Shown one piece after another: positions 3,875-15,607 of a stretch of DNA of 64,000 nucleotides. This stretch comes from Actinomycetaceae bacterium TAE3-ERU4. GTDB taxonomy: Bacteria; Actinomycetota; Actinomycetes; Actinomycetales; Actinomycetaceae. The translations under genes were made by a program, and so were the position numbers. The stretch spans positions 1-64,000 of the forward strand of contig JAHUUJ010000002.1 of assembly GCA_019218365.1 (NCBI GenBank), written 5' to 3'. Every line of letters begins with the position of its first letter. Position 1 is the first letter of the stretch. The notes under the pieces were generated by a model. It made no database searches. It saw only the letters and a program-made list of their open reading frames with translations, and had not been told where the DNA came from.

Positions 3875-4762
3875 ATGGATGAGCAAGCCGGTTCCGTGAG
3901 TTCGGCCCCGGATGGCCCCGCACCCACTGATGAACAACTGGAGCGACTGTTAGAGCAGACTCGCCACCAGTTGCGTCACGGTACTCAACTGGCGCGTTCG
4001 ATTCGGGCTACGAGCGAGTCTCTTTTTGCGCCTTTGCGCCCGCATATTCCGCACGAAGGTGGCGGGTATGAGAGTGAATGGGTGCTTTCTGCGCAGGCGC
4101 ATTCACTGTCGCCAGAAGTAGAGTCGCTTGCCCAGCCGGTTTCTTCTTCACCTGTTCCTGAAGTAGCGCATGTCCTAGACCCGGAAGAAGCGGCTGCTCC
4201 GGCTGATCATTTGCCGACGGCGGGTCAGGTTATTTTGATTTTGGCGCAGATTCCGCAGGCATCTTGGGCGCTAGATGCCGGTGAACGTTTGGTTTCTCGC
4301 ACTGAGCTATCTGGAGTGAAAGCAAAACTTTTATTGGGTGGTCCCAAGACGGTTTTACCGGGCGAAGGAACTCGTTTACGGTCGGCTGCAGATTACTTGA
4401 ACTTCCGTGAAGAAGACCCGCAGACAGCCCTTATTTTAGTGGTGATTGATTCCCCGGTGGACGCTCATTCACGCGTGGCAAATAAGCTCCTTGAGGTGGC
4501 TCATCCGGATGCTATTTGGGGTGTGTGGGATGCGCGTCGCCCCTATGGTGAGTGCATTGATTGGATAGCCTCGCGCCCCTACGGTTTAGGAATTGACGCG
4601 ATGGCTTTGCATCACGTTTGGGAGAGCCGAAATATTGCTGAGTTTAAGCGTCTTCCGGTGTGCGTGTCCTGGCTGGATGGAGCTCCCGCTTCGCAAACCG
4701 TGTGGGACCTTTTGCAAGAAGATCGGGTTTCGTCTTCGAATGTAGAGGTTTCGGGTACGTAG
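3875..4762 (+). CDS. Hypothetical protein within the pur cluster
   Basis: This 295-residue protein starts at ATG 3875 with GGAG a few bases before it; a TTG at 3863 in frame is less likely. Residues 1-130 are acidic, Pro/Ala/Ser/Gln-rich and probably disordered, including an early helical Gln/Arg/Leu segment. Residues 130-285 look folded, with hydrophobic strand-like segments (GQVILILAQI, TALILVVID) and an Asp/Trp-rich end. There is no signal peptide or membrane span and no family I recognise. Its position 54 bp after purD and 63 bp before purC suggests co-transcription, but no known purine enzyme matches it. Confidence 0.75.
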   Translation: MDEQAGSVSSAPDGPAPTDEQLERLLEQTRHQLRHGTQLARSIRATSESLFAPLRPHIPHEGGGYESEWVLSAQAHSLSPEVESLAQPVSSSPVPEVAHVLDPEEAAAPADHLPTAGQVILILAQIPQASWALDAGERLVSRTELSGVKAKLLLGGPKTVLPGEGTRLRSAADYLNFREEDPQTALILVVIDSPVDAHSRVANKLLEVAHPDAIWGVWDARRPYGECIDWIASRPYGLGIDAMALHHVWESRNIAEFKRLPVCVSWLDGAPASQTVWDLLQEDRVSSSNVEVSGT

Positions 4763-4824
4763 TTTACTGTTCGTGACACGCGGGCGGTCCGCGTGTTGGA
4801 CCGTCTGTGACGAAAGGTAAAAAA

Positions 4825-5724
4825 ATGACTTCTGCTCCGCTAATTGAGGGTTGGCGACACATCTATTCCGGTAAGGTGCGTGATTTGTATGTTCCTTTGC
4901 CCGGTGGTGAGTATGACCCTGAGCGTCATGTGCTAGTGGTGGCTTCCGACCGGATTAGCGCTTATGACTGGGTTCTTCCGACGACGATTCCTGATAAGGG
5001 AAAAATTCTTACCACGATGACCCTGTGGTGGTTTGAGCAGCTGGCCGACATTGTTCCCAACCATGTGGTTTCTACCGATGTTCCCGAGGTAGTGGCAGGT
5101 CGAGCAATGATTTGTGAACATTTGATGATGCAGCCGGTCGAGTGTGTGGTACGCGGATATTTAACGGGTTCTGGTTTGGTGGATTATCGAGCCTCGGGAA
5201 ATGTATGTGGGGTGGAGCTTCCCGCTGGTTTAACTGAGGCTTCTCGTTTGCCTGAACCGATTTTTACTCCGGCTGCGAAGGCGCAGGTGGGTGAGCATGA
5301 TGAGAATGTTAGTTTCGAGCAGGTAGCGGGAACCGTCGGTGTGGGTGTGGCGCATGATTTGCGTAATCTTTCCCAGCGGATTTACGGGCGTGCTTCTGAG
5401 CTAGCGGCTCAGCGTGGAATTATTTTGGCTGATACTAAGTTTGAGTTTGGGCAGTCGACTTTGGACGGTCCGCTAATTTTGGCAGATGAAGTTTTAACCC
5501 CGGACTCTTCGCGTTTTTGGGATGCTGAGGAATGGTGTGAGGGACGAGTAACACCTTCGTTTGATAAGCAGTATGTGCGGGATTGGCTAGTTTCTTCGGA
5601 CGCTAATTGGGATAGGTCTGGAAAACAGAATCCGCCGCCCCTACCAGCTTCGGTAGTTGCGGCTACGCGGGAACGCTACCTGGATGCTCTGGTTCGTTTG
5701 ACGGGCCGAGGGCTGGAAAGTTAA
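4825..5724 (+). CDS. purC: Phosphoribosylaminoimidazole-succinocarboxamide synthase (SAICAR synthase)
   Basis: PurC condenses CAIR with aspartate using ATP to form SAICAR. Signatures include YSGKVRDLY at the N-terminus, VVASDRISAYDW, VECVVRGYLTGSG, FTPAAKAQVGEHDENVSF and the C-terminal ADEVLTPDSSRFW with SFDKQYVRDWL. The 299-residue length fits the actinobacterial/yeast-like form. The start is ATG 4825, with GAAAGG seven bases upstream; the frame also opens at GTG 4807, which would only add a few lysine-rich residues. Confidence 0.97.
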   Translation: MTSAPLIEGWRHIYSGKVRDLYVPLPGGEYDPERHVLVVASDRISAYDWVLPTTIPDKGKILTTMTLWWFEQLADIVPNHVVSTDVPEVVAGRAMICEHLMMQPVECVVRGYLTGSGLVDYRASGNVCGVELPAGLTEASRLPEPIFTPAAKAQVGEHDENVSFEQVAGTVGVGVAHDLRNLSQRIYGRASELAAQRGIILADTKFEFGQSTLDGPLILADEVLTPDSSRFWDAEEWCEGRVTPSFDKQYVRDWLVSSDANWDRSGKQNPPPLPASVVAATRERYLDALVRLTGRGLES

Positions 5725-5800
5725 GTTTCCGCCAGCATTGGTCTGGCGGGTGGTAAAGGCCCGGTGTTACGTAACGCCGGGGGAGCGAGAAGGAGCCCAA

Positions 5801-6061
5801 ATGGGTGTAATTGTTGTTGAGGTTATGCCGAAATCAGAAATTCTAGACCCGCAGGGTAAGGCTATTTTAGGTGCTTTGCCTCGGCTTGGTTTTTCTGATT
5901 TTGTGGCTGTTCGCCAAGGTAAACGCTTTGAGATTACCGTGGACGGACCGGTGACACAGGAAGCTTTAGAGCAGGCTCGCGCGGCCGCAACGGAGCTTTT
6001 GTCTAATCCGATTATTGAAGATGTAGTGTCGGTTCGTGAGCTGGAAGGTGCAAGCGAATGA
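5801..6061 (+). CDS. purS: Phosphoribosylformylglycinamidine synthase subunit PurS
   Basis: PurS is the small structural subunit that lets PurQ (glutaminase) work with PurL (synthetase) in converting FGAR to FGAM. The 86-residue size and the pattern of an N-terminal [17 protein letters not shown], a central GF..F..VRQGK and a C-terminal [10 protein letters not shown] are typical. ATG 5801 follows AGAAGGAG at good distance; the longer upstream frame is not needed. The stop overlaps the purQ start in an ATGA, indicating translational coupling. Confidence 0.95.
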
Positions 6062-6744
6062 CAAAGGTTGGGGTGGTAACTTTCCCCGGTACTCTCGATG
6101 ATCAGGACGCGGCCCGCGCGGTTCGTCTGGCGGGGGCTCAGCCGGTAAGTCTGTGGCACAAGGATGAGAATCTAAAAGATGTTGAGGCGGTAGTTTTGCC
6201 GGGTGGTTTTTCGTATGGGGACTACCTGCGTTGTGGCGCGATTTCGGCAATGAGTCCGATTATGTCCGAGGTTGTATCCGCTGCCAAGGAAGGTTTGCCG
6301 GTGTTGGGTATCTGCAACGGTTTCCAGGTTCTATGCGAGTCTCATCTGCTGCCTGGGGCACTAATCCGTAATGATCACCAGAAGTTTATTTGCCGTGATC
6401 AAACTCTTGAGGTGGTCAATAATGAGACTGCTTGGACAAGCGCTTTCGCCAAGGGGCAACAGATTGTTATTCCACTTAAAAATGGTGAGGGCAACTATCA
6501 GTGTAATCCGGCCGAGCTAGAACGCCTTGAGGGTCAGGGGCAGGTAGTGTTCCGCTATGTGGGAATTAATCCAAACGGGTCAATGAACGATATCGCCGGG
6601 GTCTGTAACGAGGCCGGGAACGTGGTGGGGCTAATGCCGCACCCCGAACACGCGGTTGAGGATGTCTTCGGGCCTGATGTTCCCGTGCAGAATGATGGCT
6701 TGGGACTGTTTAAGTCAGTACTGGAAAGCCTTCTCGGGAAATAG
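6058..6744 (+). CDS. purQ: Phosphoribosylformylglycinamidine synthase subunit PurQ (glutaminase)
   Basis: PurQ is the class I glutamine amidotransferase subunit that delivers ammonia to PurL. The catalytic cysteine is Cys86 in GICNGFQVL, the oxyanion region is in [16 protein letters not shown], and the His/Glu pair lies in MPHPEHAVE near the C-terminus. At 228 residues it is full length. It overlaps purS by four bases. The DnaA-box-rich gap follows and separates it from its partner purL, which is unusual for subunits of one complex. Confidence 0.96.
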
Positions 6745-6745
6745 G

Positions 6746-7141
6746 TTATACACACCTTTTCCACGATTTTCTTTTCACGGTTCACAACCCTGTGGATAAA
6801 CCTTGTGGATAGAAATGTGGAAAGTTGTGGATAGAAGGTTGAAAGAGGGTCGAGATTGCCGGAACGGCGGGGAAAAATGGTAGCACCTAAAGTTTTGGTT
6901 GAGGGTTTACTCTTTGCAGCCTTCTTGATTGAAACCTTGAATTTATAAGGAAAAGTGCTGATTTGCGAGGGTTTGCGGTGAAAATTCGCGCAATCTTCCC
7001 GAAATTAACACTTGCAAGTCTTCAGAAATAAGAAAAACTCGGAGTTTGTCCACAAGAATTCCTCTCGACTGTGGATAACTCTTGTGGACAAGGCTGTGGA
7101 TAAGAGGTGTTGAAATCTCTTAAACCCTGGTTTTATCCACT
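6746..7141. promoter_or_regulatory. Cluster of DnaA-box-like sites between purQ and purL
   Basis: The 430 bp between purQ and purL has no credible gene. It contains nine close matches to the DnaA box TTATCCACA/TTATNCACA. On the plus strand: TTATACACA 6746, TTGTCCACA 7046, TTATCCACT 7133. In the inverse orientation: TGTGGATAA at 6791, 7070 and 7095, TGTGGATAG at 6804 and 6826, TGTGGACAA at 7083. A looser TGTGGAAAG lies at 6816. The boxes form two groups, about 6746-6834 and 7046-7141, flanking a more AT-rich middle. That layout resembles a replication origin or a DnaA-titration locus; the true role is unknown from sequence alone. Confidence 0.75.
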
Positions 7142-7174
7142 AAACTACCTTTAGTAACAATCTACGGAGTAAAG

Positions 7175-9571
7175 ATGACCGCTTCCGCTAAGACCAACTC
7201 TTCCCCCGACGAAACCCCAAAACATTCCCGCGAACACTACGATACTGTAGAAAATGCGGCCGCCACCTCGGAGCAGGAAATGCCCTACGCCGAGTTGGGC
7301 CTGAAAGAATCCGAGTACGAAAACATTAAAACGCTCCTGGGGCGTCGCCCCACCAACGCCGAACTGGCAATGTACTCGGTTATGTGGTCCGAACACTGCT
7401 CGTATAAATCCTCGAAAAAACACCTCCGGAAGTTCGGGGAAAAAACGACCCCAGAAATGCGCCAGCACCTACTGGTCGGAATGGGTCAAAACGCCGGCGT
7501 AGTGGATATTGGGGACGGGTATGCGGTGACTTTCAAGGTGGAGTCACACAATCATCCCTCCTTTGTGGAGCCGTATCAGGGTGCCGCTACCGGTGTGGGG
7601 GGAATCGTTCGTGACATCATGTCGATGGGCGCTCGCCCAGTAGCCGTAATGGATCAGTTGCGTTTTGGGGATGTTAACCATCCTGACACTGCCCGTGTAG
7701 TTCACGGTGTGGTTGCTGGTGTAGGTGGATACGGTAACTGCCTAGGATTGCCAAATATCGGTGGAGAAACCGAATTTGATTCTTCTTACCAGGGTAACCC
7801 GCTGGTAAACGCGCTGTGTGTGGGGGTGCTTAAGCACGAGGATATTCACCTGGCCAACGCTACGGGAGTTGGTAACCACGTAATTCTCTTTGGCGCACGC
7901 ACCGGTGGGGACGGAATTGGGGGAGCTTCCATCTTGGCTTCCGAAACCTTTGAAGATGGTATGCCCGCTAAGCGGCCCTCAGTACAGGTCGGCGACCCTT
8001 TCATGGAAAAGGTGCTCATTGAGTGCTGTCTAGAACTGTTCTCCTCTCGTGTTGTAGAGGGGATTCAGGACTTGGGAGCAGCCGGAATTTCCTGTGCGAC
8101 TTCCGAACTAGCTTCCAACGGCGACTCAGGCATGCACGTTGATCTTGAAAAAGTGCTTTTGCGTGATCCGTCGCTAACCGCCGGGGAAATTCTTATGTCC
8201 GAATCCCAAGAGCGCATGATGTGTGTGGTAACCCCTGAAAATCTTGCAGCTTTTGAGGAAATCCTTACCAAGTGGGACGTCGAATATTCTGTCATTGGCA
8301 CGGTGACTGGAAATGGTCGCCTGACCATCGACCATCACGGACACCGAATCGTTGATGTTGATCCCAAGAGTGTCGCGCACGAGGGGCCTGAATATGATCG
8401 ACCCTACCGTCGCCCGCTTTGGCTCGATGAATTGCAGGCAAACGGTACTGCAGACCTGCCGCGTCCACGTACCGCCGCCGAAATCAGCGAAGCTGTTCTA
8501 AAGATGGTTGCCAGCCCCAACCAGGCGGCTAAGAGCTGGGTAACTGACCAGTATGACCGTTACGTGCAAGGAAATACTGCTCTAGCTCAGCCCGATGACG
8601 CTGGGGTGGTTCGTGTGGTTGAAGAAACCGGTCTGGGAATTGCCCTATCTACCGACGCTAACGGGCGCTTCTCTAAACTTGATCCCTACGTTGGTGCGCA
8701 GCAGGCCCTGGCCGAGTCTTATCGTAACGTTTGTACGGTTGGCGCCCGTCCGCTCGCGGTTACGGACTGCCTCAACTTCGGTTCCCCGGAAGATCCGGAC
8801 GCGATGTGGCAGCTAGTTCAAGCGATTGAGGGTCTGGCCGAGGCTTGTCGAGTAATGTCGGTACCGGTCACCGGCGGTAACGTTTCGCTATACAACTCTT
8901 CGGGTGCAGAAAAGTCGCGCCCTGACTCGTCTATTAATCCCACCCCGGTTGTTGGGGTGTTGGGGGTAATGGACGATGTTCGTCGCGCTAACCCTTCCGG
9001 TTGGAAGGAAGAAGGACTGGCCTTGGTTCTACTCGGTTTAACTGCTGATGAACTTGATGGTTCTGCCTGGGCGCGTGATATTCACGGGCACCTTGGTGGC
9101 CTGCCTCCGAAGGTTGACCTAGAAGCAGAAATGGCGCTGGGGCGAGTTTTGCTCGCTCTGTCCGAGGCGGATGGCGGAGCTTTGGTCGCGGCGGCTCACG
9201 ACTGCTCTGCTGGTGGTCTGATTCAGACTCTGGTAGATGGGTGTCTACGTTATGGAGTGGGAGCTTCGGTAGATTTGTCGGGAGCTTGCAAACTATCAAA
9301 GCTTGACACTTTTGAGATGCTCTTTAGTGAGTCGGGAGCACGTTGTGTACTGGCTGTTCCTGAGGGGGTCTTGCCTGCCGTTGAGGCCGCCGCGCAAGCA
9401 GAGAATGTTGCCTTTGGAAGAATTGGTACTACGGGTGGTCAAATGTTGACTGTAACCGGGGCTGATTCCTTCAATGAAACTACCGGCGAGCCGGTTGAGG
9501 GTGATTTGCTTATCTTCGATTTGGATGAACTGCGTTTGGCGAGTGAAAAGACCCTGCCTTCACATTTCTAA
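7175..9571 (+). CDS. purL: Phosphoribosylformylglycinamidine synthase subunit PurL
   Basis: PurL uses ATP and PurQ-derived ammonia to turn FGAR into FGAM. At 798 residues it is the small bacterial form that needs separate PurS and PurQ. Visible signatures include [45 protein letters not shown], a second repeat half with NFGSPEDPD and [10 protein letters not shown], and a C-terminal AHDCSAGGL. The start is ATG 7175 preceded by CGGAG. The first 35 residues are a hydrophilic extension before the conserved domain. Confidence 0.97.
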
Positions 9572-9602
9572 AATATTTCTGGTGTAGTACTAGAACACTT
9601 TG

Positions 9603-9646
9603 AACGGTGGGCGCAAAAAGGTATTTTTCTTTTTGTGCCCACCGTT
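9603..9646 (+). terminator. Terminator after purL
   Basis: Arms at 9603-9620 and 9629-9646 pair over 18 bases with a single G-T wobble (AACGGTGGGCGCAAAAAG), with an eight-base loop. It lies 31 bp after the purL stop and ends the purine cluster. Confidence 0.85.
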
Positions 9647-9699
9647 TTACGAGTGTAAAAATTTTCTGAATTACTTAGGACTTTTGTCATCATTTCTTG

Positions 9700-9713
9700 T
9701 TAAAACGTTTTAA
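9700..9713. promoter_or_regulatory. Perfect palindrome TTAAAACGTTTTAA, candidate operator
   Basis: A 14-bp perfect palindrome with a central CG, the style of LacI/GalR-family operators, lies about 150 bp upstream of the promoter for the guanidino operon. The binding protein is not identified. The sequence is AT-rich, so chance occurrence is possible. Confidence 0.35.
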
Positions 9714-9856
9714 TAGGTAGGGGAGATTTGAGAGAATTAGGGCTTTTGTCCCGCCTGAAAACAGGTTAATTTTAGTTGATTTAATTGACTTCTTTTTGTT
9801 TTATTTGCTGAATGATAACAAAAATTGATAGGAAAAATATAATCTTTCGCTATTCC

Positions 9857-9885
9857 TTGACTGGCTAAAAATGCGGTACTAGACT
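9857..9885 (+). promoter_or_regulatory. Predicted housekeeping promoter of the guanidino operon
   Basis: TTGACT at 9857-9862 and TAGACT at 9880-9885 are separated by exactly 17 bp, a good fit to the vegetative sigma consensus. Transcription would start near 9892, giving a leader of about 110 nt before the carbamoyltransferase, which contains the small ORF at 9904. Confidence 0.6.
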
Positions 9886-9903
9886 GAAACTGCCAAGGAG
9901 GGG

Positions 9904-9978
9904 ATGCCCGACAGCTCATCAACAATGATGTTGTCCGAGTATTGTCCGTCAGGTTCTATAGGAATTTGTCCACGATAA
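9904..9978 (+). CDS. Possible 24-residue leader peptide
   Basis: An ATG at 9904 directly follows AAGGAGGGG and opens a 24-codon frame ending in TAA at 9976-9978, 22 bases before the carbamoyltransferase start. The peptide has a Ser run and two late Cys-Pro pairs but no run of one amino acid that would suggest classical attenuation; it contains a single Arg, as the last codon. The spacing between the GGAGG and the ATG is short. It may be a regulatory leader or only part of the untranslated region. Confidence 0.3.
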
Positions 9979-10000
9979 TAGTCGGAGGTATTACTTCGCC

Positions 10001-11017
10001 ATGCCTGAAACAGTATTTCAAGGCCGTAGCCTACTGTCCATGAAGGACTTCAGCCGTGCAGAAATCGAATGGTTAATTGGTTTCTCGCGTCATCTTAAGG
10101 ATCTCAAGAAGCGCAACGTTCCGCACCGTTACCTAGAGGGTAAGAACATTGCACTTTTGTTTGAAAAGACCTCCACCCGTACCCGCGCAGCATTCACCGT
10201 GGCCTCCATTGACCTCGGTGCCCACCCTGAATTCCTCGGTAAGCAGGACATTCAGCTGGGAAACAAGGAAACCGTTCGCGACACCGCTTTGGTTCTTGGA
10301 AGCATGTTCGACGGTATCGAGTTCCGTGGCTTCAAGCAGGAGCACGTAGAACAGCTTGCTGAGCACGCTGGTGTGCCGATTTGGAACGGTCTAACTGACC
10401 GTGAACACCCCACCCAGATGATTGCTGACTTCATGACCATGCAGGAAGAGTTTGGCAAGCTAGAGGGCCTTACCCTTTGCTACTGCGGTCAGGGTCGCAA
10501 CAACGTCCAGAACTCGCTGATGATTACCAGTGCAATTTTGGGTGTTAACTATGTGAACGCTACCCCGAAGGAACTTGCACCGGACCCTGAGGTTGTTGCA
10601 GTAGCACGCAAGTTTGCCGAGGAAAGTGGCGCTACCATCACCGTTACCGATGACCCGGTTGAGGCCGTCAAGAAGGCTGACGTAGTTTACACCAACGTTT
10701 GGGCCGCAATGGGTGAAGAAGGCCAGTTCGCTGAGCGTGTTCGCATGATGCGTCCTTACCAGGTAAACGCTGAACTTGTTTCTCACATCGAGAACCCCAA
10801 CTACATTGTTCTCCACTGCCTCCCGGCTTACCACAATGCCGAAACCGAATACGGTAAGGAAATTGAAGAAAAGTATGGTTTGGCGGAAATGGAAATTACA
10901 GATGACGTGTTCTACTCATCTCACGCCCGCCAGTTTGAGGAGGCAGAAAACCGTATGCACTCCATCAAGGCAATTATGGCCGCAACGCTTGGTGACCTAT
11001 ACATCCCCAGCGTCTAA
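10001..11017 (+). CDS. Carbamoyltransferase of the ornithine/putrescine family, probably catabolic, altered substrate loop
   Basis: The 338-residue protein has the carbamoyl-phosphate motif STRTR (58-62), HPTQ (136-139) and HCLP (272-275) of ornithine carbamoyltransferases. In a fermentative operon it would run backwards, splitting a carbamoylated amine (citrulline in the classical pathway) with phosphate into the amine and carbamoyl phosphate. The substrate-side residues differ from normal ornithine enzymes: the usual D-x-W-x-SMG is NVWAAMG (232-238), and GDxRxNMGNS is [10 protein letters not shown]. The paralogue at 39735-40739 keeps DIWVSMG. Asp and Ser of that loop normally hold the ornithine alpha-amino group, so another substrate is possible. 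ATG 10001 follows GGAGG. Confidence 0.85.
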
Positions 11018-11031
11018 TTCGTGACCGTTTA

Positions 11032-11068
11032 GGTTGGTTACCGCGCTAAAACTGCGCGGTAACCAACC
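11032..11068 (+). terminator. Perfect 15-bp intra-operon hairpin
   Basis: Arms 11032-11046 (GGTTGGTTACCGCGC) and 11054-11068 pair perfectly with a seven-base loop. No T-run follows on the plus strand. It sits between the carbamoyltransferase and the carrier gene, so it may act as a partial terminator or as an mRNA 3'-end stabiliser. Confidence 0.6.
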
Positions 11069-11122
11069 CTGGCGTCCCCATTCTTGGAGGCACGCCTGAT
11101 TACCCAATGGAGCTTATAAGAA

Positions 11123-12670
11123 ATGTCTTCCAAAGTTGTCTCTGACGCTGCTGTCGCAGACCCTAAAGTAAAAGCTAAGAAGAAGAAAACCCGGCAGTCG
11201 CCAAATACCTATGTAATTTTGTTCTTCATTACAGCTTTTATTGCCATTTTGTCCTGGTTCATTCCAGGTGGTGCATACAAGCTTGACGATGCCGGTCACG
11301 CGATTGCCGGAACCTATGCCGAGGTACCCTCAACCCCACAGGGTCTATGGGATGTCCTCATGGCACCGATTACCGGTATGCTCGGATCTAAAGCCACTGC
11401 CGCAGCTATCCCGATTTCCCTATTCGTGATGCTGTTTGGTTCGTTCCTGGAAATGATGGAACAGACCGGTGCTTTGAAACTAGGATTGCACAAGGTCGCG
11501 GTAGCAAGCCAAAAGCGCCTCTTGGTTTTGATTGCAGTTTTGACTTCGGTCATGTCGTTCATGGGAACCGTTGAAGGCGCCTACGAAGAAGGCATGGTTT
11601 ACCTGATGATGTTTATCCCAATTCTTTTAGCTTTGGGACTGGACACCGTCACGGGCGTAATGATTGTTGTTCTCGGTACCCAGATTGGTTGCTTGGCTTC
11701 TACTATCAACCCCTTCGCTACAGGTATCGCTTCCGGTATTGCCGGAATTTCCGTAGGTGACGGAATGGGCCACCGTGCTCTTATGCTGGTGGGCTTAACT
11801 GCTGTGGTTATCGCCTTCATTTATCAATACGCACGTAAAGTACAAGCTAATCCTGAAAAGTCGATGCAGTTCTACCGTCGCGACGAAGACCTTAGGTTGT
11901 TCGCCGCTACCGAAGAGGGCGAAGTAAAGATGGAAAAGCGCCAGAAGTGGGCGCTGGGATTGTTCATCACTACCTTCGTAATCATGATTGTTTCGCTGGT
12001 TCCCTGGACCTCGCTGAACGAAAACTGGACTTTCTTCGGTACTTTCACCAAATGGATTGGAAACACCCCCGGTCTGCGTGAAGTATTCGGTTCTAACATT
12101 GTTCCCTTCGGTGACTGGTACTTTGCTGAACTATCTATGCTCCTGCTCCTGATGACATTTGTTATCGGTTGGGTTTCGGGCTACACTGCGAATGAAATCG
12201 TTGACATTACCATTAAGGGTGCTGGTGGCCTAGTTTCAACCGCGTTCGTGGTTGCTATGGCACGTGGTATCCAGGTGGTAATGGACTCTGGAAAGATCAC
12301 CCCCTCGATTCTGCACTTTGGTGAAAGCACCCTTTCGTCGCTTTCCCCAATTAGCTTCGCAATCGTCTCGCTGATTTTCTACTTCCTGATTGCCTGCCTT
12401 ATTCCCAGTTCTTCCGGACTGGCTGCGGCAACCATGGCGATTATGGCTTCGCTTTCACGCTTTGCCCACGTTGATGTCTCCATCATGATTACCATCTACT
12501 GCATGGCTCTTGGTCTTGCGAAGATGGTTACTCCGACCTCTATCGTCCTAATGACCTGTCTACAGGCCGCCAAGGTGCCCTACGGTAAGTGGGTTCGTTT
12601 CATCGCCCCCTACGTGGCTGCACTCTTTGCCCTGTGCTGTGTCATTCTCGCGATTCTGGTGAGCATTTAA
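11123..12670 (+). CDS. YfcC/ArcD2-type basic amino acid carrier
   Basis: A 515-residue membrane protein with a basic cytoplasmic N-terminus (KAKKKKTRQ) and about 12 hydrophobic spans. It matches the YfcC/DcuC-like ion-transporter family: FFITAFIAILSWFIPGGAY at the start, the internal MGTVEGAYEEGM and STINPFATGIASG re-entrant-type segments, and SSSGLAAATMAIMASL near the end. Members in arginine-deiminase operons exchange arginine for ornithine. Here it likely imports the guanidino substrate and exports the amine end product. GGAG lies about 12 bases before ATG 11123, rather far. Confidence 0.85.
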   Translation: MSSKVVSDAAVADPKVKAKKKKTRQSPNTYVILFFITAFIAILSWFIPGGAYKLDDAGHAIAGTYAEVPSTPQGLWDVLMAPITGMLGSKATAAAIPISLFVMLFGSFLEMMEQTGALKLGLHKVAVASQKRLLVLIAVLTSVMSFMGTVEGAYEEGMVYLMMFIPILLALGLDTVTGVMIVVLGTQIGCLASTINPFATGIASGIAGISVGDGMGHRALMLVGLTAVVIAFIYQYARKVQANPEKSMQFYRRDEDLRLFAATEEGEVKMEKRQKWALGLFITTFVIMIVSLVPWTSLNENWTFFGTFTKWIGNTPGLREVFGSNIVPFGDWYFAELSMLLLLMTFVIGWVSGYTANEIVDITIKGAGGLVSTAFVVAMARGIQVVMDSGKITPSILHFGESTLSSLSPISFAIVSLIFYFLIACLIPSSSGLAAATMAIMASLSRFAHVDVSIMITIYCMALGLAKMVTPTSIVLMTCLQAAKVPYGKWVRFIAPYVAALFALCCVILAILVSI

Positions 12671-12704
12671 TAAACCGAAAATAATTCAGAGAGGAATTAG
12701 TAAA

Positions 12705-13574
12705 ATGTCAGAAAAAGCTCCCCTAGATGAAGTATTCGTAAGCAATGCAACCAACCGCCTAACCAAGGTAATGGTTTGCTCTCCTAAGTACTACACCTTC
12801 AACGCTATCAACGTCATCACCGCCGAGTGGATGAAGAAGGGCGACACCGAACAAAACGATGTGATGGTACGCGAATGGCAGACCCTCGTCGACGCCTATG
12901 AAGCTAACGGGGTCGAGGTCGTACAGGTAGAAGCCCGCAAGGAATTCGAAGTTATGACCTTCGCTCGCGACTATGGTTGCATGATTAAGGAAGGTGCCGT
13001 AATTGGTCACTTCCGCCACCCTGCTCGTCAGGTTGAAACCGTAGCTTACGAACAGAAACTAAAGGAAATGGGAGTTCCGATTGTGGCCCGCGTTAACGCC
13101 GGCTGCATGGAAGGTGGAGACTTCTGGATGATTGATGACCACACCTTGGCATTCGGTCTGGTAGACCGTACTGACGAGGCCGGTGTTGCCAATCTTCGTG
13201 ACCAGCTTTCCAAGTTCGGTTACACCGTAGTTGGAGTGCCGGTTCCTCCGGACAACTTGCACCTTGACATGGTGTTCAACATTGTCGCTCCGCAGGTAGC
13301 TTTGGCTGCTACTGACCAGCTACCGTACAACTTTATGCAGATGCTCAAGCGTCGTAACTTTGAGATTATTGAAGTTGCTGCTGAAGACGTCTTTAAGCAC
13401 GGTTGTAACGTACAGTGCATCGGTGACGAGCGGGTTATCGGTATCGAAAAGAACAAGCACATCAACGACAAGATGCGTGCCCTAGGCCTAGAAGTTATTG
13501 ACGTGCCGTTCGATCAGATTCTGCACGCCGGCGGTGGTCCTCACTGCCTGACCCAGCCGATTAAGCGCCCCTGA
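12705..13574 (+). CDS. Guanidino hydrolase of the arginine deiminase/DDAH (amidinotransferase) superfamily
   Basis: The 289-residue protein has the catalytic layout of this superfamily: FARD at 86-89, EGGD at 136-139, the catalytic His in LHLD (His186), and the nucleophile Cys281 in GGGPHCLTQP. It would hydrolyse a guanidino group to a ureido product, releasing ammonia or an alkylamine. It is much shorter than classical arginine deiminase (about 400 residues), closer in size to dimethylarginine dimethylaminohydrolase, and has GLVDRTD where arginine deiminases have a GxGxRTN-like segment. With the adjacent carbamoyltransferase and carbamate kinase it supplies the first step of an ATP-yielding pathway. 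GAGAGGA precedes ATG 12705. Exact substrate unknown. Confidence 0.83.
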   Translation: MSEKAPLDEVFVSNATNRLTKVMVCSPKYYTFNAINVITAEWMKKGDTEQNDVMVREWQTLVDAYEANGVEVVQVEARKEFEVMTFARDYGCMIKEGAVIGHFRHPARQVETVAYEQKLKEMGVPIVARVNAGCMEGGDFWMIDDHTLAFGLVDRTDEAGVANLRDQLSKFGYTVVGVPVPPDNLHLDMVFNIVAPQVALAATDQLPYNFMQMLKRRNFEIIEVAAEDVFKHGCNVQCIGDERVIGIEKNKHINDKMRALGLEVIDVPFDQILHAGGGPHCLTQPIKRP

Positions 13575-13590
13575 GATTGTAGCGATTGCC

Positions 13591-14574
13591 ATGAAAATAC
13601 TAATTAGTGATTACGCCGAATCAATGATGCCGACCCACGACCTGGAAATCGAAACTATTCGAGCGGGTCTGGGGCCGGAAACAGAGATTGAGGTCTACGC
13701 ATACACTGACGAAAACCGGGCGGAATTCCTAGAAAAAATCAGCGATGTAGACGGTTTGCTCACAGCCTTTGTCAAGATTGACAGGGAAGTGTTCGAACAC
13801 GCTCCCAAGCTGAAGGTAGTTTCTCTAAACTCGACCGGTTGGGATGGAGTAGACCTTGAAGCTGCTACCGAACACGGGGTGAAAGTTTGTCCCGTAGGTG
13901 AATACTGTACTTGGGATGTCGCCGAAGGTGCCGTTGCTTACGTATTTGCCATGAGCAAGCAGCTAAAGTTCTACGGTCGTCAAATCGATCAGGAACACAA
14001 ATGGGATTACTCTGCCGGTAAATCGTGGCCCCGTATCGAAGAAACTACCGTAGGTATTTTCGGTCTCGGTAAAATCGGTAAATGCACCGCTAAGAAACTC
14101 GGACCACTCGTTAGCCGGGTAGTTGCTTACGATCCGTTTGTAAGCGATGAAGACGCCCGGGCTATTGGGGTAGAAATGCTGTCTAAAGAAGATGTATTCG
14201 CACAGTCGGATATCATCATTAGCCACATGAACCTCAACGACGATACCCGAAACATGTTCAATGATCAAGCATTTGAACAAATGCGCCGCCACCCGATTCT
14301 TATTAACATGGGAAGAGGGCAGTGCGTAGATGAAGCTGCTCTGATTAAGGCCTTGGACGAAGGTAAACTTCGGGGATATGCTGCGGATGTGCTCATCGAT
14401 GAGACTCCACAGTTGGAAACCCACCCCCTAGTTGGGAGAGATGATGTGATGTTAACTCCTCATTCATCGTTCTATTCCCAAACTTCGATTGAAGCCTTGG
14501 AGAAAATCTCATCTAACAACCTGGTTCATGTTCTCAAAGGTGAACTAGATCAGGTGTTCAAGCTGGTCAACTGA
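13591..14574 (+). CDS. D-isomer-specific 2-hydroxyacid dehydrogenase
   Basis: The 327-residue enzyme has an NAD-binding GLGKIG at about residues 154-159, the substrate-side NSTGWDGVD, an arginine-bearing NMGRGQCVDEAAL, and the catalytic His in LTPHSSFY. These fit the family that interconverts 2-oxo and D-2-hydroxy acids with NAD(H). It starts 16 bp after the guanidino hydrolase and lacks a strong ribosome-binding site, so it is probably translated by coupling. Its presence in a deiminase-like operon is unusual and suggests either redox balancing or a substrate that is itself a 2-hydroxy or 2-oxo acid. Confidence 0.87.
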   Translation: MKILISDYAESMMPTHDLEIETIRAGLGPETEIEVYAYTDENRAEFLEKISDVDGLLTAFVKIDREVFEHAPKLKVVSLNSTGWDGVDLEAATEHGVKVCPVGEYCTWDVAEGAVAYVFAMSKQLKFYGRQIDQEHKWDYSAGKSWPRIEETTVGIFGLGKIGKCTAKKLGPLVSRVVAYDPFVSDEDARAIGVEMLSKEDVFAQSDIIISHMNLNDDTRNMFNDQAFEQMRRHPILINMGRGQCVDEAALIKALDEGKLRGYAADVLIDETPQLETHPLVGRDDVMLTPHSSFYSQTSIEALEKISSNNLVHVLKGELDQVFKLVN

Positions 14575-14584
14575 AACTAAAAAG

Positions 14585-14623
14585 CAGAAGGGCGGCTGCA
14601 ACTTAACAGCAGCCGCCCTTCTG
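14585..14623 (+). terminator. Perfect 15-bp intra-operon hairpin
   Basis: Arms CAGAAGGGCGGCTGC (14585-14599) and its exact complement (14609-14623) enclose a nine-base loop. There is no T-run after it. It lies between the dehydrogenase and carbamate kinase genes and parallels the hairpin at 11032-11068. Confidence 0.65.
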
Positions 14624-14659
14624 ATATTTCAGACCTCGACTTATTTGAAGGAAAACAAA

Positions 14660-15607
14660 ATGACGAAACCACGTATTGTAATTGCCCTCGGTGGAAACGC
14701 CTTGGGAAACACTCCCGCTGAACAGCTCGAAAAGGTTGAGCACACCGCCGAAGTTTTGGTGGAATTGGTAAAGCAGGGAAACGAAATTGTTGTCACGCAC
14801 GGGAATGGTCCCCAGGTGGGAATGATTAATAAAGCCTTCGAGTTGGCTAATGAAGCCGACAAGAAAATTCCATTAATTCCGCTCCCCGAATGTGGTGCGA
14901 TGAGCCAGGGATACATCGGATACCACCTCCAGCAGAAGATTGGTAAGAAAGCCGTTGAAGCTGGAGAGAACTGGCCGGTTGCCTCAATCGTCACCCAGGT
15001 TGAGGTAGACGAAACCTCGGCAGCCTTCCAGAATCCCACCAAGCCAGTTGGTGCTTTCCTAAGCGAAGAAGCCGCGAAAGAAATGATGGAAGCCGACCCC
15101 ACAGTGAAGTTCGTAGAGGATGCCGGGCGCGGTTGGCGTCGCGTTGTCCCCTCACCCGAACCAATGCGGATTGTCGAAATTGACGCGGTTAATAACCTCG
15201 TTAACGCTGGTTTCATTGTCGTTTGCTCCGGTGGTGGCGGTGTCCCCGTAGTCGCTGAGGGCAAGGGACTAAAGGGTGTACCAGCAGTAATTGACAAGGA
15301 CTTTGCGGGTGAACTACTGGCCGAAAAGGTAGAAGCACAGACTTTGTGCCTATTGACTGAGGTCAAGCATGTTGCGATAAACTACAATACCCCGGAACAA
15401 GAAGACCTAAAGGACATTACAGTTTCTGAAGCTAAGAAACTGTGTGACGAGGGTCAGTTTGCTCCCGGAAGCATGCTTCCTAAGGTACAGGCCGCAATTC
15501 GCTTCGTTGAATCCGGTGCTGGCCGTGTGGGAATCATCGGTGCACTCAGTGACGCTGCGAACGCCATCAATGGCCTCAGCGGTACCCGCATTCACGCGGA
15601 TTCCTAA
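14660..15607 (+). CDS. arcC: Carbamate kinase
   Basis: Carbamate kinase transfers phosphate from carbamoyl phosphate to ADP, giving ATP, CO2 and ammonia; it is the energy-yielding step of arginine-type fermentations. The 315-residue length is typical. Signatures are ALGGNALG at the N-terminus, THGNGPQVG, VCSGGGGVPV, VIDKDFAGELLAE and FAPGSMLPKVQAA. The start is ATG 14660 with GAAGG eight bases before; a TTG at 14645 in frame is not needed. It lies downstream of the hairpin at 14585. Confidence 0.96.
   Translation: MTKPRIVIALGGNALGNTPAEQLEKVEHTAEVLVELVKQGNEIVVTHGNGPQVGMINKAFELANEADKKIPLIPLPECGAMSQGYIGYHLQQKIGKKAVEAGENWPVASIVTQVEVDETSAAFQNPTKPVGAFLSEEAAKEMMEADPTVKFVEDAGRGWRRVVPSPEPMRIVEIDAVNNLVNAGFIVVCSGGGGVPVVAEGKGLKGVPAVIDKDFAGELLAEKVEAQTLCLLTEVKHVAINYNTPEQEDLKDITVSEAKKLCDEGQFAPGSMLPKVQAAIRFVESGAGRVGIIGALSDAANAINGLSGTRIHADS

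Follow-up and report, generated by a model that had tools for sequence, protein, structure and literature searches.

The question raised by this locus is why a dense cluster of DnaA-box-like sites lies in the gap between purQ and purL of Actinomycetaceae bacterium TAE3-ERU4 (hereafter also G000). The window, that is, the whole stretch of DNA that was analysed, comprises 64,000 nucleotides (positions 1 to 64,000 of contig JAHUUJ010000002.1). An earlier note had counted nine such sites, had held chance to be an improbable cause and had offered three options, namely a relocated or second origin of replication, a DnaA locus like datA or DARS, and control of purL by DnaA. With at most one mismatch to TTATCCACA allowed, all nine were recovered at 6746-7141 (396 bp), three exact and six with one mismatch, and chance is indeed hard to invoke: the Poisson probability of at least nine boxes in 396 bp is about 5e-15, and after dinucleotide shuffling of the gap (2000 replicates) the mean was 0.11 boxes and the maximum 2. 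Genome-wide (1.70 Mb, 10 contigs), 22 exact TTATCCACA sites and 54 YTRTCCACA sites are present, 3 and 7 of which, respectively, fall in this gap. The 756 kb scanned in this genome (103-503 kb of contig C1 and 1-356 kb of contig C3) contain 207 sites with at most one mismatch, and elsewhere no 400-bp stretch holds more than 5.

The boxes form two groups (Table 1), as had been noted before, but the AT-richer centre claimed to lie between them was not recovered, since the AT content of 50-bp windows ranges from 46 to 64% and the two lowest values lie directly after the left group. The ORF list has no frame of at least 90 aa inside the gap, positions 4500-10000 gave no Rfam hit at the gathering score, and a terminator scan gave nothing at threshold. 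PurQ shares 63-74% identity with the 80 named relatives retained, the top one being Winkia neuii (74%), and the N-terminal part of PurL is 85% identical in G049 and G061, two genomes of the same genus in which the 24-bp inverted pair of the second group is also present. A TetR gene is located at 1061-1762, 5 kb from the element, and frames at 10001-15607 resemble, by eye, an arginine deiminase pathway (carbamoyltransferase, transporter, deiminase-like protein and carbamate kinase).

Table 1. Genes flanking the purQ-purL gap and DnaA-box-like sites within it (window coordinates)
Feature	Position	Strand	Basis or remark
purQ, left neighbour of gap	6058..6744	+	228-aa ORF
purQ-purL gap, 430 bp, contains the element	6745..7174	strandless	AT 59%
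DnaA-box-like TTATACACA, slot of conserved inverted site, 45 bp before box II	6746..6754	+	reads TACACA here
Box I slot, weak inverted site CGGTTCACA, conserved slot	6778..6786	+	CACA register, 39-locus alignment
Box II, exact TTATCCACA	6791..6799	-	box match and alignment
Box III, CTATCCACA, 13 bp past box II	6804..6812	-	box match and alignment
Tenth, weaker box CTTTCCACA, 2 mismatches	6816..6824	-	box match
Extra box CTATCCACA	6826..6834	-	box match
Second group: inverted box TTGTCCACA, 24 bp before next	7046..7054	+	box match
Second group: exact TTATCCACA	7070..7078	-	box match
Second group: TTGTCCACA, 13 bp beyond 7070 box	7083..7091	-	box match
Second group: exact TTATCCACA, 12 bp beyond 7083 box	7095..7103	-	box match
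Box-like TTATCCACT, between second group and purL	7133..7141	+	box match
purL, right neighbour of gap	7175..9571	+	798-aa ORF

Smaller clusters were also observed in these genomes. Four boxes, two of them exact, lie at C1:341664-341818 (L202) of this genome, directly upstream of a gene of the glutaredoxin family resembling nrdH, and a three-site cluster occupies the matching place in G049 (C1:501168-501330). Six sites are located between dnaB and a divergent transporter-like frame in G061 (C1:72043-72221, L154), and dnaB-adjacent clusters of three sites each occur in G000 (C1:317483-317852) and G049 (C1:472681-473076), dnaB having been identified by Pfam in G061 and by homology in G000. About 15 kb from dnaA, five-site clusters adjoin a rhomboid gene (Pfam in G000) in G000 (C1:361324-361487, L203) and G061 (C1:17048-17159), and three of the loci L306-L309 from other families show rhomboid-like frames by eye.

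Comparison with relatives revealed that the core of the cluster has a fixed layout, consisting of an inverted site followed by two tandem sites in 13-bp steps, often with a second inverted site 43-45 bp upstream, which recurs in three other families (f8, f9 and f13) as well as in Georgenia and Oceanitalea. The tandem pair, written as TGTGGA-N7-TGTGGANAA, gave 19 matches in 16 of 62 family genomes, compared with 1 match for the same pattern read backwards; 15 of the 16 genomes carry exactly one match and G040 carries four, and none of the 19 lies at dnaA. The only strict match in this genome belongs to the second group rather than the left one. In 9 of the 19 tandem loci an inverted TCCACA, which is no part of the search pattern, stands 43-45 bp upstream of box II, where about 0.04 would be expected from density, in a distance window picked after inspection; these nine loci come from six genera and are therefore not all independent. 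When the inverted site was included (gap 32-38), 26 of 396 genomes of the order matched and the control gave 0. Four of these matches are dnaA-dnaN regions, four have a different-looking shared sequence at another locus (three adjoining rhomboid-like frames, by eye), and 18 are elements at other sites (two from this family, six from f13, five from f8 and five from f9), so that the -44/II/III pattern alone is not exclusive to the element. When the search was extended to the class, 10 of 394 genomes matched, including 2 from the order; seven matches from one f36 genus and one from f22 had no dnaA, dnaN, pur or TetR match in the flanks examined.

An alignment of 39 loci was assembled from the 19 tandem loci, 18 matches from 16 f13, f8 and f9 genomes, the left group of this genome and Actinomyces oris. 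The CACA of box I stands exactly 13 bp before box II in 30 of the 39 loci (TNCACA in 25), the mean count of CACA per offset being 1.35; for the f13, f8 and f9 rows, which had been selected by means of the -44 site, independent testing is confined to box I and the spacers. The consensus of 35 rows approximates TNTCCACAGG, about 21 bp, TGTGCACA, NNCC, TGTGGACAA, AATC, TGTGGATAAC, and was sharpened by the omission of 7 of the 19 tandem rows (G034, G020, four of G040 and the second group of this genome), with three Georgenia and Oceanitalea rows added. Box I is weak in this genome, its slot lacks CACA in G061, and the core is blurred in G049, where four boxes are kept; the missing CACA kept the element of G061 from matching a looser pattern for the whole unit. 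That pattern occurs once in 2.17 Mb from three genomes of the genus, in the purQ-purL gap, and at 6 of 80 named purQ loci, including Georgenia satyanarayanai (two genomes) and Oceanitalea stevensii, in both of which the unit lies about 1.2 kb beyond purQ and on the opposite strand. It is absent from both strands of 32 family dnaA loci (31 genomes), and the box lists of 10 such loci were read strand-corrected. The strict tandem pattern found no match in 46 of 62 family genomes, including G019 and G049 of the same genus, which may reflect loss, drift or a different element; as strict patterns miss diverged copies, all these frequencies are lower bounds. Duplicated forms were observed as well: one f13 genus has two core copies about 255 bp apart and in register (L294/L314 in G172, L295/L315 in G159), and the four tandem pairs of G040 (L278, L285, L286 and L287) lie on four contigs without box I, three of them with an inverted site 21 bp upstream, perhaps as a spreading repeat.

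The gene neighbourhood is more variable than the core. After all loci had been turned to the purQ strand (30 from the family and 7 named ones), at least three box-like sites under a loose rule followed purQ at 7 of the 30 family loci (G000, G049, G056, G027, G038, G003 and G014) and at 4 of the 7 named loci (Winkia neuii, one Actinomycetaceae MAG, Actinomyces oris and A. denticolens). Of the 16 genomes with the tandem pair, 13 have it no more than about 3.2 kb from purQ, purC or purL, the exceptions being G061, G020 and G040. In G061, a single contig, the 900 bp that follow purQ (351.8 kb) are free of sites with at most one mismatch; a two-part cluster of the same layout lies at 213.9-214.2 kb between synteny blocks, with purL at 255.5 kb. 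In G003 and A. denticolens, purQ and a trehalose-synthase-like gene (Pfam in G003) converge on the element with their 3' ends, an arrangement that G038 shares; in G011 and G044 purC precedes the element, and the flank examined has no purL match. G034 has purL and, in the flank examined, no purQ, whereas topA lies beyond the element in G033 and, as it reads, in G060. G019 has neither a purQ/purL pair nor a pattern match, and its sole PurQ- and PurL-like matches share one open frame of 1239 aa (G019:C7:58477-61155), as if a single-chain enzyme had replaced the pair. Among f13 and f8 genomes, a homologue of the TetR gene of the window lies within 1.5 kb of the element in 9 of 11 (two of the nine matches covering 60-75 aa only, at the locus end), and f9 elements adjoin a CtaG/CopD-type gene instead (Pfam at one locus, the others reading alike). 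A class-wide search found the TetR gene in 7 of 118 genomes at E<=1e-20; outside this genome, five of the six loci had no DnaA-like box in the flanks examined and one had a single weak site. A link with the TetR gene was observed in no families other than f13 and f8. As far as can be read from the sequences themselves, then, the element is defined by its boxes, by a core spacing fixed across families and by a usual site near purine genes in this family, and it persists where those genes have been lost or moved.

The most probable reading of these data, to which we assign a probability of about 0.58, is that the cluster is an enlarged version of a short DnaA-box element, non-coding and present in Actinomycetales, which lies near the origin of replication and outside it and serves in the control of DnaA. 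Of the options raised before, a locus like datA or DARS fits best, in that this is a conserved element, not situated at dnaA, whose internal spacing stays the same where the flanking genes differ. That the boxes are a chance pile-up or the functionless remains of a decayed element is extremely improbable: box number and gap length do vary among close relatives, and the strict pattern is missing from many genomes of the family, but the shuffle and Poisson tests and the spacing fixed across families speak against it.

It is very improbable that the chromosomal origin has been relocated from dnaA to this gap or that a second origin resides there. Such an origin would be consistent with the densest box cluster within the sequence scanned, and the dnaA-dnaN gap of this genome is weak in boxes, having no exact one and two with one mismatch, with two more upstream of dnaA. 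As the check proposed earlier required, dnaA was located, at 376.4 kb on contig C1, with frames resembling dnaN, recF and gyrB after it and rnpA, yidC and parAB-like frames on the opposite side (by eye). Judging by gene order in G049, the right end of C1 adjoins the left end of C3, which puts the element about 134 kb from dnaA provided that no sequence is missing at the junction; the corresponding distance is 214 kb in G061, 125 kb in G044 and 370 kb of 3.1 Mb in G038. With at most one mismatch allowed, four parS-like sites were found, all of them at C1:380.6-385.2 kb (3-9 kb from dnaA) and none on C3, which speaks against an origin in the gap, although parS may merely stay with parAB; among the matches listed, parS-like sites are similarly close to dnaA in G049, G019, G003 and G038, and so are two of three in G061. 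AT content is 68% in the dnaA-dnaN gap, where a 40-mer reaches 90%, whereas the purQ-purL gap is 59% AT and has no 40-bp stretch above 72%, so that of the features of an oriC the latter shows the box cluster and not the AT-rich unwinding element. G027 and G056, moreover, have the element as well as several boxes on both sides of dnaA. Nucleotide skew, also suggested as a check, placed the origin neither at dnaA nor at the gap: the minimum of the cumulative G+C skew and the fitted switch in G000 fall between the two, which could favour a displaced origin, but the skew is weak and noisy, and in G049 the fit has the opposite sign, with weak and contradictory switches. The raw, cumulative and strand-corrected four-fold-site models covered 756 kb in G000 and 758 kb in G049, and for G061 raw skew was computed over 800 kb; GC skew was used as evidence in neither direction. 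The true origin is probably at dnaA, and the purQ-purL cluster is probably not a replication origin.

The proposal that DnaA acts here as a transcription factor on purL, coupling purine supply to replication, is improbable as the main role. The boxes lie between purQ and purL in this genome, G049, G056, G027, Winkia neuii and one MAG, and other clusters of this genome adjoin the nrdH-like glutaredoxin gene or sit between dnaB and a divergent gene, all in keeping with this proposal. A conserved position upstream of purL was nevertheless not found among the relatives: in G061 the element is separated by 41 kb from purL and by 138 kb from purQ, and it lies between convergent genes in G003, A. denticolens and G038 and after purC in G011 and G044. 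Given elements between convergent genes, after purC or without purQ in the flank examined, control of a purL promoter cannot be the shared role. No sigma-70-like promoter was detected in 6600-7300 by a scan that covers that promoter type only. The element is thus unlikely to be mainly a purL promoter, and it may have an added local effect on purL in this genome.

Whether the element acts like one of the known DnaA-control loci was considered by comparison. In Escherichia coli MG1655, DARS1 and DARS2 both read I(+) -14- II(-) -12- III(-) over 35 bp (boxes I and III, which are unannotated, being assigned here), and the element reads I(+) -13- II(-) -13- III(-), likewise over 35 bp. This polarity, with boxes I and II in head-to-head contact, is described as a prominent feature of DARS in PMC5742627. 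At a locus of the DARS type, ADP-DnaA would collect on boxes I and II in head-to-head orientation, box III following in tandem, and release of ADP would yield fresh ATP-DnaA and promote initiation. The three-box core with an inverted box I is present (box I of this genome being weak), and the absence of the unit from the 32 family dnaA loci also agrees with this mode of action. On the other hand, the spacing is 13/13 and not 14/12 (both totalling 26), close spacing is common in DnaA arrays, so that the likeness could be due to chance, and the element is nearer to dnaA than DARS1 and DARS2 are to oriC, a distance that is more like that of datA. The element may work like a DARS, although this is an unlikely account on balance; it is not classed as one because the shared 14/12 spacing is not found in it.

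In E. coli, datA lies about 10 centisomes from oriC, and the element about 8 from dnaA (134 kb of 1.70 Mb). Like datA, it is, by box match, an intergenic DnaA-box cluster near the origin and outside it, whereas datA itself requires an IHF site and its own set of boxes (PMC5742627). Clusters of DnaA boxes outside oriC are reported to repress untimely initiation in Streptomyces coelicolor and Bacillus subtilis in a manner like datA (PMC5742627, PMC4585315), and removal of six such clusters from B. subtilis is reported to have led to early initiation (PMC5295017). The element resembles them as a chromosomal cluster near the origin and outside it. In comparison with the Streptomyces clusters, the fixed 43-45/13/13 layout and the pur/TetR neighbourhood are known from the present comparison alone, and the strict pattern had no match in 39 f37/g148 genomes (5.8-11 Mb), which we take possibly to be Streptomyces. 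The dnaA-dnaN origin regions of Actinomycetales share boxes of the same consensus, and four in other families match -44/II/III; the element differs from them in lying away from dnaA, in lacking a strongly AT-rich stretch and in its box I unit, which is absent from the family dnaA loci. No description of this element was found by title or abstract in the open-licence literature.

If the cluster is indeed an enlarged DnaA-control element, a mechanism may be suggested. Boxes in fixed register would favour a defined DnaA assembly, in which DnaA would bind cooperatively and be held or processed, leaving less DnaA, or DnaA at set times, for the true origin beside dnaA. The element would be doubled soon after initiation, and re-initiation would then be damped, in line with proposals made for datA and for clusters in Bacillus and Streptomyces; this restraint is suggested because of the analogy with those loci (PMC5742627, PMC4585315 and PMC5295017). 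A bolder and decidedly tentative extension is that Actinomycetales have a dedicated element for recycling or inactivating DnaA, with a DARS-type head-to-head core, kept across several families and often near pur or TetR genes, of which the window would contain an expanded two-part version. To our knowledge, elements with a DARS-type head-to-head core are otherwise known only from proteobacteria, and the control that limits initiation to once per cycle is much less worked out in actinobacteria than in E. coli. With its readable layout, a conserved non-coding element of this kind would provide a concrete handle on the sequestering, inactivating or recharging of DnaA and bears on whether DnaA-control loci are general in bacteria. 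In these organisms, the element may help to set when copying of the chromosome starts.
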